Shown piece after piece: positions 52,631-60,466 of a stretch of DNA of 64,000 bases. The stretch spans positions 62,001-126,000 of the forward strand of contig JAMPUU010000012.1 in assembly GCA_030144965.1 (NCBI GenBank), written 5' to 3'. The notes below the pieces were generated by a model, which saw nothing but the letters and a program-made list of their open reading frames with translations, searched no databases and was not told where the DNA came from. Each line of letters opens with the position of its first letter. Position 1 is the stretch's first letter. Source of the stretch: Nitrospira sp. BO4. Lineage in GTDB: Bacteria; Nitrospirota; Nitrospiria; Nitrospirales; Nitrospiraceae. The position numbers and the translations under genes are program-made.

Positions 52631-53449
52631 ATGCCACAGGGTTCAGCACAGGTTTCGTCAGGAACTATCGCTCCCACGGTGAAGGGACCGGAGAGAGATA
52701 CGAAGGAATTCACGATTTTAGCCGCACTGATTCTTATCGTCAGTGGACTGCTCGCCGCTGCGTGGTACTACAGCCAGTCGAGTGACCAGGTGACGGTATC
52801 TCCCGCCACGGGAGCGATTGGGAATGCCAATGTGCCGGATCTTCTCAAACAAGCTGCGGTTTCGAATCAGGCGGGAATCTTGACCACACACTCTGCCCAG
52901 GGCGTGACCCCTGTGGCAGCGGTATCGGACATTATTCATACCGATATCTACTTCGAAGTTGGACGCAAGGGGCTGACCGATGAAGGGAAGGCGCAGTTGT
53001 CGTCTCAGGCAGACATGCTGAAGCGGAATGAGGACTACGGCGTGTTGATCCAGGGCTATACCGATCAACAGGGATCGGCAAGCTACAACAAGCAGTTGGG
53101 TATGAAGCGTGCCGAAACGGTCAAGGCGGAACTGGTCAATGCCGGAATTGCCGAGCACCGGATCAAGGCTGTGAGCTTGGGCGAAGAGGGCGTGCTCTGC
53201 ATCGATACCAGCGACACCTGCCGGCACATGAATCGGCGAGTGCACTTGGAAGTCCGGAAGGTCGGCCAGGAGCATATGGCGGTGCCGGCCGTGGCTGAAA
53301 CTCCCGCAGTCGAGACGACTCAAAGCGCAATCGAATCGAACCAGAACACCGACGATACCGGTTCATCGACCGACGGCTTGGTGCCCTCCACCAACGCCTC
53401 GGATGGGAACGGCGTCACACCGCTGGACGAAACCGCCGGCGGGAGCTGA
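52631..53449 (+). CDS. Inner-membrane-anchored OmpA-family protein (sortase-system type)
   Basis: 272 residues. AAAGGAGG precedes the ATG. There is one membrane helix near the N-terminus (about residues 27-47, FTILAALILIVSGLLAAAWY) and no cleavable signal. The OmpA C-like peptidoglycan-binding domain covers about residues 100-218 (DIYFEVGRKGLTDEGKAQL, LIQGYTDQQGSASYNKQLGM, RRVHLEVRK). The tail is Ser/Thr/Asn-rich. Proteobacterial dedicated sortase loci contain an OmpA-like protein (PdsO) beside the sortase and its target; position here, directly ahead of those two genes, suggests the same role, which is inference. Confidence 0.8.
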   Translation: MPQGSAQVSSGTIAPTVKGPERDTKEFTILAALILIVSGLLAAAWYYSQSSDQVTVSPATGAIGNANVPDLLKQAAVSNQAGILTTHSAQGVTPVAAVSDIIHTDIYFEVGRKGLTDEGKAQLSSQADMLKRNEDYGVLIQGYTDQQGSASYNKQLGMKRAETVKAELVNAGIAEHRIKAVSLGEEGVLCIDTSDTCRHMNRRVHLEVRKVGQEHMAVPAVAETPAVETTQSAIESNQNTDDTGSSTDGLVPSTNASDGNGVTPLDETAGGS

Positions 53450-53454
53450 TCACG

Positions 53455-53506
53455 CGCAGGGATTACCCCTGGGAAGCCTGTCCTTCCCGGGGGTGCCTCT
53501 GCGTTT
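53455..53506 (+). terminator. Terminator-like hairpin after the OmpA gene
   Basis: Stem with ACCCC-GGGAAG / CTTCCC-GGGGT in the middle and CGCAGG / CTCTGCG outside, followed by TTTACTT. It could reduce transcription into the sortase-target gene. Confidence 0.6.
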
Positions 53507-53538
53507 ACTTCAACATCACTCCAACTCACGAGGCTATC

Positions 53539-55659
53539 ATGCTGCATCGCTCGCTCCTGGCACGGCCGCACCGTGCCCTTCACCTGGCAACGTCTTTCGT
53601 ACTGTGCTCCGCTCTGCTTCTTCTTTGTCTCGATAGTCCCTCACCGGCCGAACCGATTGAACCCGAATCGCTCAGCACCGGCATCGTGCCGACGATGGGG
53701 CTTCATGACGTGAAGGAAGGCACGCTCCTATTCAAGACCAATCAGCAGGGCCGCTACCGGCCGGCTTCGATCCTGAAAACCGATGTACAGATCGCCGTGA
53801 CCGGCATGATCGCCCGCGCGGCAGTGCGGCAAGAATTCACAAACCCCAGCAAGAAGAAAGGCGACTGGCTCGAAGGCATCTATGTGTTCCCGCTCCCGGA
53901 AACCGCCGCGGTCGACCATCTCCGCATGAAGATCGGTGAGCGCATCGTCGAAGGCCAGATCAAGGAGCGGGCCGAGGCGAAGAAAACCTATGAACAGGCG
54001 AAGCACGAAGGCAAGCGGACAAGCCTGGTCGAGCAGGAGCGGCCCAACATCTTTACAACGTCGGTCGCCAACATCGGACCAGGCGAGCGCGTTATCGTCG
54101 AGATCGAGTATCAGGAAACCGTCCGGTACGACAACGGACAGTTTCAACTCCGCTTTCCCATGGCCGTCGGCCAACGGTACATTCCCGGCACCCCGGTGAT
54201 CATCGAAGGCCAAGAACCGAAAGGCTCAGGCACGGTCCTCGACACCGATCGCGTCCCGGATAGCTCGCGCATCACGCCTCCGGTGCACTCACCTGGCCAA
54301 GGCTCCATCAACCCTTTGAGCCTTGCCCTCGTTCTCAACCCAGGATTCCCGGTCGCCAAGGTGGAATCGCCCTACCACCCGATCATCGTCATCCCGGATC
54401 CAGACGGTGGATTTCAGGTCAGCTTGAAGGAGGAAGCGGTGCCGGCAGATAAAGATTTCCAGCTTATTTGGCATCTCGCCCCTCACACAGCTCCCTTGGC
54501 GACGATCTTCACTGAAGAGAAGCATGGGGAAACCTATGCCATGCTCACGATTGCCCCGCCGACTCAGCCGGACGAAAAAGCCGTACGCGTGCCGCGTGAC
54601 CTCATCTTCGTGATCGACACGTCCGGGTCGATGGCAGGCCCGTCCATCCAACAGGCCAAAGCTTCGGTGACAGCGGCACTGACAAGGCTCACCACGCTGG
54701 ACCGATTCAATGTGATCCAATTCAACAATACGGTCCGTTCCCTGTTCCCTACGCTCGAACCCGTGACGGCAGCAAGTATGAGAAAGGCTGTGCGTTACAC
54801 CGAGCGGATGTCGGCGGATGGAGGAACCGAGATTCTTCCCGCGTTGAGGCAGGCCCTGAAGAATCCGCAAGATCCGTCCCGGATTCAACAGATCGTATTG
54901 CTGACCGACGGACAGGTCGGCAATGAAGAGGAGCTGTTCGAGATGCTGCACTACAAGCTCGGCACCAGGCGACTGTTTACGATCGGCATCGGCTCGACGC
55001 CGAACAGCTACCTCATGCGCAAGACAGCGGAGGTCGGCCGGGGGACCTTCACCCATATCGGCAATATCGAAGAGGTCAAGGACCGCCTCGATGCGCTGTT
55101 CAAGAAGTTGGAGCGGCCTGTTCTCCATGACATTGCCGTCGATCCCACCGGTTGGTCGGGCACGGAACAGTACCCCTCGCAGATTGCCGATCTGTATGAG
55201 GGTGAACCGATCGTGCTCGCGATCAAGGCGCGCTCACTCCCACCACACGCGACGCTGAAGGGACTCGCAGGTCATCACCCCTGGACCCTGCCGGTCTCGT
55301 TCAACCAGGCAGCTTCACAGGGAGGTCTTTCCGTCTTTTGGGCCAGACAGAAGATCTCCGCGCTGATGGATGAGACATACAAAGGCGGAGTCGAGGAGGC
55401 GATCAAAAACGCCGTGATCGATGTCGCAGTGAGTCATCACCTGGCCAGCAAGTACACGAGCCTGGTTGCCGTAGATGTCACGCCCGCCAGGCCGACGGAT
55501 CGCTCAAGTACTGAACAGGCTCCGGCCGCTGTTCAAGATCAAGCTTCAATCGCCGCCCTGCCGAAGACCGCCACAATCGGGCAGTTGCAGATCCTGTTCG
55601 GGCTGGCGTTGCTGACGATCGCAGGGTTGGTGTGGCGCCATCGGAAATGGACGGCATGA
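53539..55659 (+). CDS. VIT/vWA sortase-target protein with LPKTA signal
   Basis: 706 residues. Signal segment near residues 12-35. VIT domain (about 60-190, TDVQIAVTGMIARAAVRQEF, IFTTSVANIGPGERVIVEIE). von Willebrand A domain with the MIDAS motif DTSGSM at about 360 and LLTDGQVGNEEEL later. The C-terminus is a sorting signal: LPKTAT at about 674, a hydrophobic helix (LQILFGLALLTIAGLVW), and RHRKWTA. In this, the usual LPXTG Gly is Ala. This matches the marine proteobacterial sortase-target family in architecture. The next gene is the sortase, overlapping by four bases. The protein would be displayed at the cell envelope; partner unknown. Confidence 0.92.
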   Translation: MLHRSLLARPHRALHLATSFVLCSALLLLCLDSPSPAEPIEPESLSTGIVPTMGLHDVKEGTLLFKTNQQGRYRPASILKTDVQIAVTGMIARAAVRQEFTNPSKKKGDWLEGIYVFPLPETAAVDHLRMKIGERIVEGQIKERAEAKKTYEQAKHEGKRTSLVEQERPNIFTTSVANIGPGERVIVEIEYQETVRYDNGQFQLRFPMAVGQRYIPGTPVIIEGQEPKGSGTVLDTDRVPDSSRITPPVHSPGQGSINPLSLALVLNPGFPVAKVESPYHPIIVIPDPDGGFQVSLKEEAVPADKDFQLIWHLAPHTAPLATIFTEEKHGETYAMLTIAPPTQPDEKAVRVPRDLIFVIDTSGSMAGPSIQQAKASVTAALTRLTTLDRFNVIQFNNTVRSLFPTLEPVTAASMRKAVRYTERMSADGGTEILPALRQALKNPQDPSRIQQIVLLTDGQVGNEEELFEMLHYKLGTRRLFTIGIGSTPNSYLMRKTAEVGRGTFTHIGNIEEVKDRLDALFKKLERPVLHDIAVDPTGWSGTEQYPSQIADLYEGEPIVLAIKARSLPPHATLKGLAGHHPWTLPVSFNQAASQGGLSVFWARQKISALMDETYKGGVEEAIKNAVIDVAVSHHLASKYTSLVAVDVTPARPTDRSSTEQAPAAVQDQASIAALPKTATIGQLQILFGLALLTIAGLVWRHRKWTA

Positions 55660-56258
55660 ATCGGGGCCGAATCATTCGACCGGCTCACGGCGCGCTGGTC
55701 GCATGCGTCCTCGCGATTGGGCTTTGGCAAGTCGGAGAAGGATCGTGGATCTATGTGAAGGCCGAGCTCGCGCAGTATCTCCTGCAGCGAGCTTGGTCTC
55801 GCACCCTGGCCGGTGAAACGGCCGTTAAGCCTTGGCCTTGGGCCGACACCTGGCCCATTGCGCGATTGGTGATCCCACGTCTGGGCGTTGATCAGATCGT
55901 GTTGGAAGGAGCATACGGACGAACGCTGGCATTCGGGCCAGGCCATGTCGAAGCCAGCGCGTTTCCCGGTTCGTCCGGCACCACGATTCTCACGGGCCAC
56001 CGCGACACCCACTTCAAATTCTTGAAACGCCTGCGTCCGCACGATGAGATCATGATCGAAACCGTGGAGGGACACCGGCTGCGTTTTCTGGTATCGGAAA
56101 GCCGCATTGTGGATTCACGATCCGGCACCATTCCACTCGATCACCCACAGAGCAGACTCGTCCTCGTCACTTGCTATCCATTCGGTTCGATGATGGTTGG
56201 TGGGCCGTTGAGATACGTGGTGACTGCGGAACGTGACGCAATAGGAACGGGAGGCTAG
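55656..56258 (+). CDS. Sortase of the Gram-negative (marine proteobacterial) class
   Basis: Transpeptidase that cuts the sorting signal of the preceding gene product. 200 residues from the ATG at 55656, which overlaps the target's stop (ATGA). One N-terminal helix (about 12-30, GALVACVLAIGLWQVGEGSW). The catalytic residues of the sortase barrel are His115 (LTGHRDTHF), Cys173 (LVLVTCYPF) and Arg186 (VGGPLRYVV). The translational overlap with a gene carrying LPKTA shows a dedicated enzyme-substrate pair. The stop overlaps that of the convergent nuclease gene in the bases CTAG. Confidence 0.93.
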   Translation: MNRGRIIRPAHGALVACVLAIGLWQVGEGSWIYVKAELAQYLLQRAWSRTLAGETAVKPWPWADTWPIARLVIPRLGVDQIVLEGAYGRTLAFGPGHVEASAFPGSSGTTILTGHRDTHFKFLKRLRPHDEIMIETVEGHRLRFLVSESRIVDSRSGTIPLDHPQSRLVLVTCYPFGSMMVGGPLRYVVTAERDAIGTGG

Positions 56259-56746
56259 TTCCGACCGGTCGTCTTCGCCGACTTCCATTTCCATGGCGGG
56301 ATCGGATTCGGCTCGGACCACAGGCCCTTCGCAGAAGCTCTGGCGAGCTCTTCCATATCTTTCAGGGTCTGATCGCTGGATTTTCCCGGCTGCGCCCAGG
56401 CGAGTCCTTCTTTGACCAACTCATGGGCGACATGCCTGCCGTCTTGCAGCAGAATGTCCGCCGTGATCCGACCCTGCCGGTCACGCTTCAAATCCCGCAC
56501 CACCACATCACGGTTGGCGACATAGACGTTCGTCGCGTGCTTTGCCTGTTTCCCGTACGGTTGTTTCATCTCCGGACAATCAATATCTCGAAGGTAGACC
56601 ATTTCCTTCCGTCCCTGATGATGGATCGTCAGACGATCTCCCTCATGGACCATGAGGACTCGTGCAATGAAATCTGCTTGGGCAAGCGCCGGACAGATCA
56701 TGCTCAAAGCGAGCACCAGACATGTAGCAAGGCGATGCTTCATCAT
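56255..56746 (-). CDS. Exported thermonuclease (SNase)-like protein
   Basis: 163 residues from the ATG at 56746 (MMKHRLATCLVLALSMICPA, signal peptide, cleavage near AQA). The SNase OB-fold is recognised by ARVLMVHEGDRLTIHHQG, VYLRDIDCPEMKQPYGKQAK and VAHELVKEGLAWAQPG. The usual Arg-Glu-Arg catalytic set seems altered: the second Arg region reads DVVVRDLKRDRQGRITADIL, which has several Arg, but no clear Glu stands in the VxxVELGxxRD context. Enzymatic activity is therefore uncertain. Confidence 0.82.
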   Translation of the reverse strand: MMKHRLATCLVLALSMICPALAQADFIARVLMVHEGDRLTIHHQGRKEMVYLRDIDCPEMKQPYGKQAKHATNVYVANRDVVVRDLKRDRQGRITADILLQDGRHVAHELVKEGLAWAQPGKSSDQTLKDMEELARASAKGLWSEPNPIPPWKWKSAKTTGRN

Positions 56747-57130
56747 GATGTCGTATGCTACCGTCAGCAGCACATTCAGCCAATCATTTATGTATATTCT
56801 GTATATTTAGACACGACGACGTTCACTGAGAATAGATAGGTGGGTCTTGCGAGGTACGTGAATGCCCGATGAAGCTCATCCAAACAGGATCCATTCCGGG
56901 CCCCCCAGTGTAGCTATTCGCACACACACCTGATAGGATGCTGATGTCTCATTGCGGAGGGCCTCGCATGAAACAAGAATCTCAATGGCCTGTCACCGAT
57001 GTTGTTCCTGCCGAGAATCTGATTGGAAGCCTGACCTGAGCCGTTCATCCACTACGTCTTTGGCCCTCTCCTTCCCCTCCGAAGTCCCTCTCGCGTCATG
57101 GACGATGTCATTTTAGAAGGAGGAACCCCC
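56747..57130. other. Intergenic stretch upstream of the RRM gene
   Basis: About 380 bases. I see a weak 23-codon frame at 56968-57039 with a GGAGG nearby but no other support, and no clear promoter. Nothing else recognised. Confidence 0.4.
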
Positions 57131-58211: not shown

Positions 58212-58723
58212 GTGAACTCCTTGGTGAGATGTGAGGCCTCCACTCCTCTCGGGACCAAGACACGTCGGCGTCTTGGTAGAGCGGCACTCGTGGAGACTCA
58301 GGCGTAGAAGCGGCGAAGACCGGAGAATCAGACGCGCAAGAACGGGATGGGGAGGAACGGCGCGAGCGATGGGAAGTCAGCGTAGCTCAGTACGTCATCT
58401 TATCAGCCTACAAGCATGACTCATGCTCTGTCAACGGAGACAAAGACGGGAAACACACGCCCTTGACGGGTCTATCATCAGGGCGTAGGGTGAACAGTGT
58501 ACTGCAGACCGCCTTCGTCTCGGAGGTGGTGACATGCTCTTCCGTCGACGTGAGATCCAATTGAAGGGAGAGGGCATGTATGCTCTCTTCTCCAGTTCGT
58601 CCCTCACCAATCCTCCCGCTAGGCTCTGCTTACGTACTGTCCTCGGGCTTGTGAGCCCGACGACCCTATTCCGATGTGACACGTCGCACACCTGCGATTG
58701 TCCGATATGGCAAGGAGGTATGT
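58212..58723. other. Intergenic stretch with a small hairpin
   Basis: About 510 bases between divergent genes. The only element I see is a 7-bp hairpin TCGGGCT-TGTG-AGCCCGA (58643-58660). No convincing gene. Confidence 0.4.
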
Positions 58724-59677
58724 ATGTCCTACCGTTACAACACCATCGACATCATCGTGGGTGTCGGACTCTGTGCCATTCTGTTTGGAGCACTGTTGTT
58801 ATTCGCCGCGGCCAATGGCACCTATCAAGTAGTCCTCCCACAGGCGCTGGCGTCGGAACAACCAGCAACCAGTGATATGGGCATGAGCGCGCTTCAACCG
58901 GCACTCGGTCAAGCCATCCTCGATCAAGCGCTCTTCGAGCGCCGCACCAATCACGCCATGGCTCAATCGGTCTCCGAATGGAATCGCGCGACCATGGCGC
59001 ATTATGAATTGTACTCCGGCTCACGCGGCTTGCTCGGGACTGTCCTCAATGAAGCGGCAACCGTCCCGGCCACCCATCTGGCTCGCGTGCAGGGCGTCAT
59101 GGGACGAGCGATCGTCAACGTCACGACTCGCGGTGTTCGGAGCGGCTTCTTGTCTGCTGATCACTATGGTTCAATGTACAACATGACGATGATCGGCGCG
59201 ATCGAAGCCAGGGGACAACAGCTTCATCATGCGTTCGCTTCCACTTGGCAAGCCACGCTTGGACGCCGCATCGTCGAGGCCGCTCAGCACGATTGGATAC
59301 AGGCCGGTGCGATCCAGGAACGGCTCGGGTGGGCTCTTGTCCGGGTAGTTGAGGCGCAACGGAGCATGGAGCAAGGACAAGCCACACAGCAAGAGCAGCT
59401 GGCCGGCTTGATATTTGCCGCGGTGCGCAGTGCAACACCGACGGACCGCATCTCCGCGCCGGCTCCTATCGCCTTATCCGCGAAGGGCGAGATGGTCGCC
59501 GTGAGCGAACCGATGGCATGGCCTGAAATTCCAATGGGCTATTTGGTTGTTGCCGGCTTCATGCTGTCGGCGGTTTTCCTTGGAGCGCTCTCACTGGCCG
59601 CGCAGGGCAGAGAAGCAAGAGCTCTCGCTCAGATCAGACGCGATGCAGATCGTTGGGTGTATCGCATGGCCGCGTGA
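58724..59677 (+). CDS. Membrane protein with two terminal helices
   Basis: 317 residues from the ATG at 58724 (MSYRYNTIDIIVGVGLCAIL), with AAGGAGG before it; the frame opens 16 codons upstream. One helix near residues 9-32 and one near 275-300 (GYLVVAGFMLSAVFLGALSL) enclose a large helical, Ala- and Gln-rich periplasmic or cytoplasmic part (LGQAILDQALFERRTNHAMA, QGQATQQEQLAGLIFAAV). The C-terminus is basic. No family recognised. It is followed after 72 bases by the response regulator, which may act on or with it. Confidence 0.7.
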   Translation: MSYRYNTIDIIVGVGLCAILFGALLLFAAANGTYQVVLPQALASEQPATSDMGMSALQPALGQAILDQALFERRTNHAMAQSVSEWNRATMAHYELYSGSRGLLGTVLNEAATVPATHLARVQGVMGRAIVNVTTRGVRSGFLSADHYGSMYNMTMIGAIEARGQQLHHAFASTWQATLGRRIVEAAQHDWIQAGAIQERLGWALVRVVEAQRSMEQGQATQQEQLAGLIFAAVRSATPTDRISAPAPIALSAKGEMVAVSEPMAWPEIPMGYLVVAGFMLSAVFLGALSLAAQGREARALAQIRRDADRWVYRMAA

Positions 59678-59749: not shown

Positions 59750-60466
59750 ATGAAAGGAGGGATTCATACGTCCACCCAACGCCGGGGAAGCGCCGCATAC
59801 CGCCGCAAGCATGGAGCGCAGCCCAGATCCATCCGGCTGCTCATTGTCGAGGCTCAACGGCTGTTCAGGCAAAGTCTGCGGCTGCTGTTGGAGCGGGAAC
59901 GGGATGTCGCTTCCGTCGTAGAGGCGCCGGATGGGCGCGAGGCCTATCGATTGGCGGTGGAGCACAAGCCCGATATCGTGCTCCTTGACGTCGACATGCC
60001 GGATCTCGATGTGGAATCGATCGCAAAACTCATCCAGCAGCACCTCCCCGATACGCGGGTGCTGCTGTTGGCTCGGTACGATGAAGATACACGGATTATC
60101 GCCGCCATGCAGGCAGGCGCGTTCGGCTACATTCTCAAGGACACCGATCAGACGGACTTTCTGCGCATCATCAGGGCCACCGTTCGAGGAGAACATATCC
60201 TGTCGCCGGTCATGCCGGACAGCTTCGCTCGTACCGTTCCCGGCGCGGTGGGGCGGACACAAGAGCACCACACCACCGTACTCATGAACTTAACCGACCG
60301 GGAACGAGAAATATTGGGTTGCGCAGCATCCGGTCGGAGCAACAAGGAAATCGCCGATCAGTTGTGCGTCTCCGTCGATACCGTGAAGACACACCTGCAT
60401 CATATCTATCAGAAACTTTCCGTGGACGGGCGCGTCGAGGCAATCCTCACCTACCTCCAGGCTTAG
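59750..60466 (+). CDS. NarL/FixJ-type response regulator with altered acidic pocket
   Basis: 238 residues. Receiver domain about 28-145: the phosphoacceptor Asp80 is present (IVLLDVDMP) and Lys130 is conserved (YILKDT). The usual Asp-Asp pair near the N-terminus reads Glu34-Ala35 (LLIVEAQRLF), and the Thr/Ser position is Ala108 (LLLARYD). LuxR-type HTH at about 176-236 (LTDREREILGCAASGRSNKE, VSVDTVKTHLHHIYQKL). The ATG at 59750 is followed at once by AAAGGAGGG, which would be a ribosome-binding site for a start a few codons later, but only ATT or ACG codons are in the right place. No histidine kinase is adjacent. Confidence 0.85.
   Translation: MKGGIHTSTQRRGSAAYRRKHGAQPRSIRLLIVEAQRLFRQSLRLLLERERDVASVVEAPDGREAYRLAVEHKPDIVLLDVDMPDLDVESIAKLIQQHLPDTRVLLLARYDEDTRIIAAMQAGAFGYILKDTDQTDFLRIIRATVRGEHILSPVMPDSFARTVPGAVGRTQEHHTTVLMNLTDREREILGCAASGRSNKEIADQLCVSVDTVKTHLHHIYQKLSVDGRVEAILTYLQA

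Follow-up and report, generated by a model that had tools for sequence, protein, structure and literature searches.

In Gram-positive bacteria, sortases attach proteins to the thick cell wall. Here we describe an intact sortase locus in the diderm bacterium Nitrospira sp. BO4, located at positions 52631-56258 of a stretch of 64,000 nucleotides (the window) of contig JAMPUU010000012.1, which is part of a 4.7 Mb genome in 30 contigs. The locus consists of three uninterrupted open reading frames (ORFs) on the + strand, encoding an OmpA-domain protein, a VIT/vWA protein and a sortase, and the ATG of the sortase gene overlaps the TGA of the VIT/vWA gene as ATGA. We suggest that the locus is best explained as a Nitrospirota type of dedicated class GN sortase system, a reading that we hold to be somewhat probable as a whole. 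That the sortase and the VIT/vWA protein are an enzyme and its target is nearly certain, since both score over the curated NCBI equivalog cut-offs of their families, each is single in the genome, the genes are coupled by the ATGA overlap, their order is conserved and they decay jointly in relatives. The locus is an intact member of a catalogued, uncharacterised kind of sortase system and is not categorically new. New here are the phylum, which is not credited with the system in the papers found, the different partner and the lack of over-cut-off regulators.

The sortase reaches 210.4 bits against TIGR03784, ‘class GN sortase’ (cut-off 158.25, E 1.4e-62). Its best start is the ATG at 55656, and the longer ORF from the GTG at 55632 is dispensable. 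The protein has a single N-terminal membrane helix and carries the catalytic residues His115, Cys173 and Arg186; over 59 aligned class GN sortases the histidine and the arginine are kept in all 59 and the cysteine in 58. The AlphaFold model (pLDDT 91.2) has its best structural match in C. perfringens sortase D (4d70, Z 19.1), and the nearest solved folds belong to class D and C sortases. Class D families, one of them described as LPxTATN-specific, are also the runners-up by sequence, with cut-offs that are not reached (NF033746, 87.6 versus 165 bits; NF058671, 86.5 versus 140 bits). Class D sortases are reported to accept Ala-containing signals, such as LPNTA for SrtC of B. anthracis (PMC12445088). 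As a separate observation, in locus L166 (4502-5053, a Kiloniellaceae bin) serine replaces the catalytic cysteine (TSYPF for TCYPF), and the target is still found upstream.

The VIT/vWA protein matches TIGR03788 with 727.1 bits (cut-off 551.65, E 1.7e-218) and comprises a signal peptide-like N-terminus, a VIT domain (79-191) and a VWA domain (354-512). The MIDAS motif DTSGS is intact, and its residues D360, T361, S362 and S364 are invariant in nine aligned targets. The C-terminus, LPKTATIGQLQILFGLALLTIAGLVWRHRKWTA, combines the LPKTAT motif with a transmembrane (TM) helix predicted at 680-698 and the basic RHRK, and this tail is the sole over-cut-off match in the genome to the LPXTG-anchor model TIGR01167 (20.6 versus 15.9 bits). 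The three-gene row, the ATGA overlap, the tripartite tail and the His-Cys-Arg set had all been named in a preliminary description of this DNA, and all are present where it placed them. Chance ORFs or a wrong reading frame are ruled out by the family scores of the target and the sortase, together with the synteny.

The sorting signal of this family differs from the canonical one. In a survey of 83 target C-termini, 79 motifs were read automatically; of these, 74 have Ala and 5 have Gly at position 5, and 75 have Thr at position 6. The four tails that were not read automatically (L124, L134, L141 and L152) have GAT or TAT at the motif site, too. Hence, xPxTAT, not LPXTG, is the signal of the family, and the Ala of LPKTA, which the preliminary description took for unusual, is the family norm. 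Four of the five Gly signals (L118, L120, L121 and L125) fall in one Nitrospira subclade of the sortases, where LPxTA has switched to LPxTG; this subclade provides a natural specificity test at position 5 of the signal.

The genome contains one sortase and one TIGR03788 protein. A codon-level search of the genome for [LF]P-x-T-A-[ST] yields 60 matches, and only that in the window protein is followed by a hydrophobic helix and an in-frame stop; a pattern of the LPxTA[TS] type is blind to strongly diverged motifs, such as the LAxGAT used by some relatives. With TIGR01167 no other protein of the genome scores over the cut-off. We thus reject a second substrate of the sortase in this genome, as no other tail with this pattern joins signal, helix and stop. 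The earlier characterisation of the locus as a dedicated system in a diderm genome is borne out by these counts: the second gene falls inside the sortase-target family, and no over-cut-off LPXTG protein elsewhere takes its place as the only target.

The same description pointed to the histidine kinase and the regulator known from such loci. In this genome the best of 37 matches to the kinase PdsS (TIGR03785) reaches 103 versus 612.2 bits and the best of 69 matches to the regulator PdsR (TIGR03787) 132 versus 335.7 bits, with none in the window; we regard these matches as generic and far below cut-off. PdsS and PdsR family members do adjoin the target in loci L127 and L171 (the L127 kinase scores 519 bits, below the cut-off of 612). 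The two regulators thus accompany the target in some proteobacterial loci, and neither is found over cut-off in Nitrospira sp. BO4.

The order OmpA-target-sortase is kept in 9/9 over-cut-off loci of the relatives search, and in each of the 22 named Nitrospirota loci that have a target and enough upstream sequence, the gene just before the target encodes an OmpA domain. Decayed loci show the coupling of the pair from another side. In three genomes of the same genus (G007, G019 and G094; loci L029, L030 and L202) the OmpA-like gene is intact, no over-cut-off target occurs anywhere in the genome, and the sortase remnant starts at about residue 67, without the membrane helix. The common breakpoint suggests one deletion. 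In G194 (L203) both target and sortase are in pieces and the OmpA-like gene is again intact. In four relatives, therefore, target and sortase have decayed as a pair, as expected for an enzyme and its only substrate.

Relatives were collected by scanning genome contigs with the sortase alignment, and their taxon labels are those of the submitters. The scan found at least 549 loci with class GN sortases, and the best 80 of these come from Nitrospirota, Alpha-, Beta- and Gammaproteobacteria, Acidobacteria, Rokubacteria and two Deinococcota bins. Among 245 sampled Nitrospirota genomes, 28 have an over-cut-off sortase, one copy each, all in two families of one order. The statement that sortases are rare in diderms is therefore overstated for class GN. 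In the maximum-likelihood tree the sortases nearest to that of the window are from Nitrospira sp., and Nitrospirota, apart from the long-branched L156, form a supported group with Rokubacteria (99/92). L117, titled Nitrosospira, nests inside Nitrospira in this tree and is probably mislabelled or mis-binned. The Deinococcota-labelled L147 and L169 have target and sortase with no OmpA gene just upstream.

The first gene of the row encodes a protein with a short N-terminal part, a TM helix at 27-45, a linker, a periplasmic OmpA domain at about 100-210 and a low-complexity C-terminal tail. Pfam OmpA matches residues 107-197 with 66 bits (cut-off 27). In the AlphaFold model the OmpA domain has a pLDDT of about 90, and its structural matches are 4g4w (Z 16.4) and 3td5 (Z 16.1), the latter being the A. 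baumannii OmpA domain with a bound m-DAP pentapeptide. In A. baumannii OmpA diaminopimelate is bound by Asp271 and Arg286 (PMC5974059). Asp145 and Arg160 of the Nitrospira protein have the same spacing of 15 and are invariant, like Cys190 and Cys197, in 28 aligned sequences; judged by motif and spacing rather than by superposition, they appear to correspond to the diaminopimelate-binding pair.

In the proteobacterial system this gene position belongs to PdsO (TIGR03789). The Nitrospira protein scores 55.4 versus 152.2 bits against PdsO, aligning its residues 99-207 to 134-242 of the model, and the values for three homologues from other Nitrospirota loci are 51-62 bits. Since the match is below cut-off and limited to the OmpA domain, whereas the partners in L157 and L171 align nearly end to end with PdsO, the Nitrospirota partner is, judged by sequence, at the PdsO position and yet not PdsO. 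An upstream OmpA-domain gene is also found in the Rokubacteria locus L124, of the same sortase clade, and some gammaproteobacterial loci have a PdsO-type OmpA protein in the same place. We suggest that the OmpA-like protein is probably a functional partner of the sortase system.

The OmpA-like stop and the target start are separated by a hairpin, the outer stem of which extends to about 53454-53504. Its folding energy of -37.1 kcal/mol (z -5.7) makes it the strongest among the 53 gene ends in the window. A stem of at least 11 bp follows the OmpA-like gene in 20/23 Nitrospirota loci and the sortase gene in 1/23; likewise, the fold beats all 40 shuffles in 20 of the 23 loci after the OmpA-like gene and in none of them after the sortase gene. 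There are 22 distinct 5′ arms among these loci. With nearly all arms different, the fold is conserved despite a changing sequence. A canonical intrinsic terminator is rejected, as there is no U-run (0-3 T in the 8 bases past the stem in all loci except L156), and no Rfam family matches the hairpin. Possible roles are protection or partial termination of the OmpA-like messenger RNA (mRNA). Whether it divides the expression of the OmpA-like gene from that of target and sortase we rate as an even call.

Based on these data, we suggest the following mechanism. The signal peptide would direct export of the target, and the C-terminal helix and the basic tail would retain it in the inner membrane, where the membrane-anchored sortase would recognise LPKTAT, its only recognisable substrate in the genome; both steps are well supported by the family assignments. 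By analogy with known sortase chemistry, Cys173 would then attack between Thr and Ala, form a thioester and pass the target to an amine; cleavage at this bond is very probable. The least certain step is the last one, in which the acceptor would be meso-diaminopimelate in peptidoglycan or its precursor, giving a wall-bound periplasmic VIT/vWA protein and not a surface protein. We put peptidoglycan as the acceptor at about equal chances of being right or wrong.

The OmpA-like protein, anchored in the inner membrane, might bind peptidoglycan of the diaminopimelate type with its OmpA domain and keep the wall within reach of the sortase. The hairpin, by protection of the mRNA 3′ end or by partial termination, would set the expression of this protein apart from that of target and sortase, so that the structural protein is made in larger amounts than the enzyme. 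Taken together, the locus would be a self-contained diderm wall-anchoring machine, in which the OmpA protein brings the sacculus, the sortase links the target to peptidoglycan and the hairpin sets the expression ratio. We regard this complete picture as rather doubtful; if it is true, a sortase of this Gram-negative class would for the first time have a defined acceptor.

Several points weigh against the proposed system. We found no experiment on any class GN sortase in the literature, and a 2023 paper calls the role of these enzymes in Gram-negative bacteria unknown (PMC10581121). In most proteobacterial, acidobacterial and deinococcal loci the target-sortase pair lacks an OmpA gene just upstream, so the chemistry can do without this partner. 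The OmpA-like gene also outlives target and sortase in the four decayed loci, and thus serves, or can serve, a separate function. The last two points, together with the hairpin that separates the OmpA-like gene from the target, are compatible with a functional unit of target and sortase only, with an independent envelope gene upstream by chance. We consider this possible, on the less probable side. However, no testable Nitrospirota locus lacks the upstream OmpA gene, the Rokubacteria locus of the same clade has it as well, and the presence of a different, PdsO-type OmpA protein at the same place in some gammaproteobacteria argues for repeated recruitment.

The fate of the target can be read differently as well. 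The sortase might be a releasing protease that cuts LPKT-A with water as the acceptor, so that the VIT/vWA protein is freed to the periplasm or secreted and is not covalently anchored. Elsewhere this VIT/vWA family carries GlyGly-CTERM (rhombosortase) or PEP-CTERM (exosortase) signals (PMC3237569), and such alternative signals suggest that the common trait is processing off the inner membrane, not peptidoglycan attachment; the acceptor, moreover, has so far only been inferred. We nevertheless consider release unlikely, as the full transpeptidase triad and the fold are conserved and a partner gene of the peptidoglycan-binding type accompanies the pair in Nitrospirota. Still less probable is the joining of the target to an amine-bearing glycolipid or an outer-membrane component for display at the surface, like type IX secretion cargo on its linking sugar. 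VIT/vWA proteins are adhesin-like, which counts in favour of surface display. Glycolipid anchoring also occurs in diderms (PMC7468200). However, neither an outer-membrane export route nor glycan genes recur at the inspected loci, and the sortase shows a membrane helix at its N-terminus but nothing typical of outer-membrane proteins.

Among known systems, the locus is closest to that defined by TIGR03784 (‘marine_sortase’) and TIGR03788. Both families are represented over cut-off, by adjacent genes with the target first, one of each in the genome, and the signal is tripartite. It differs in its host, since the literature limits the system to marine or halotolerant proteobacteria, and in the signal LPKTAT, which fits the xPxTAT rule and not LPXTG. 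The proteobacterial dedicated system of PdsO, PdsS and PdsR, for which phrase searches of the literature found nothing beyond annotation, resembles the locus in the OmpA-domain gene that immediately precedes the target, for example in L157 and L171. However, the Nitrospira partner has an N-terminal membrane anchor and is PdsO-like only in the OmpA domain, whereas those of L157 and L171 reach 137-139 bits against PdsO, just below cut-off, and the over-cut-off PdsS and PdsR are missing from the Nitrospira genome, unlike L127 and L171 with family members beside the target.

Class D sortases of monoderms (B. anthracis SrtC, B. subtilis YhcS and C. perfringens SrtD) are the nearest other sequence family, offer the nearest solved fold and use Ala-containing signals. 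The Nitrospira enzyme, in contrast, scores 87-88 bits against class D cut-offs of 140-165, works in a diderm envelope and has one dedicated VIT/vWA target. With the peptidoglycan-binding OmpA/Pal-type domains the partner shares the fold and the Asp/Arg pair at a spacing of 15; it differs in being anchored by an N-terminal membrane helix, like MotB or TagL, and is neither a lipoprotein nor a barrel.

For specialists in envelope biology, the Nitrospirota loci provide a testable handle on this class, with one enzyme, one substrate and one partner of the peptidoglycan-binding type in environmentally important nitrifiers. Two assumptions are corrected: the signal is xPxTAT and not LPXTG, and the system reaches beyond halotolerant proteobacteria to Nitrospirota, Rokubacteria, Acidobacteriota and Deinococcota bins.

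Features of the sortase locus (positions in the window)
Feature	Positions	Strand	Details
Inner-membrane-anchored OmpA-domain protein, PdsO position	52631..53449	+	272 aa; Pfam OmpA, TM prediction, AlphaFold
Intercistronic hairpin	53464..53495	+	13-bp stem, 6-nt loop; folding energy
VIT/vWA sortase target	53539..55659	+	706 aa; TIGR03788, VIT, VWA
C-terminal sorting signal: LPKTAT, TM helix, RHRK, stop	55558..55659	+	TM 680-698; TIGR01167; family motif
Class GN sortase	55656..56258	+	200 aa; TIGR03784; AlphaFold

Downstream of the sortase, the window encodes a thermonuclease-like protein (56255-56773) and a NarL-type response regulator (59750-60466), and between them lies an ORF of 333 aa (58676-59677) with no NCBIfam match. 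Nothing ties the NarL-type regulator to the sortase, and we reject it as part of the system, but it is kept near the decayed locus L030, where it and the thermonuclease-like gene stand in the same order.

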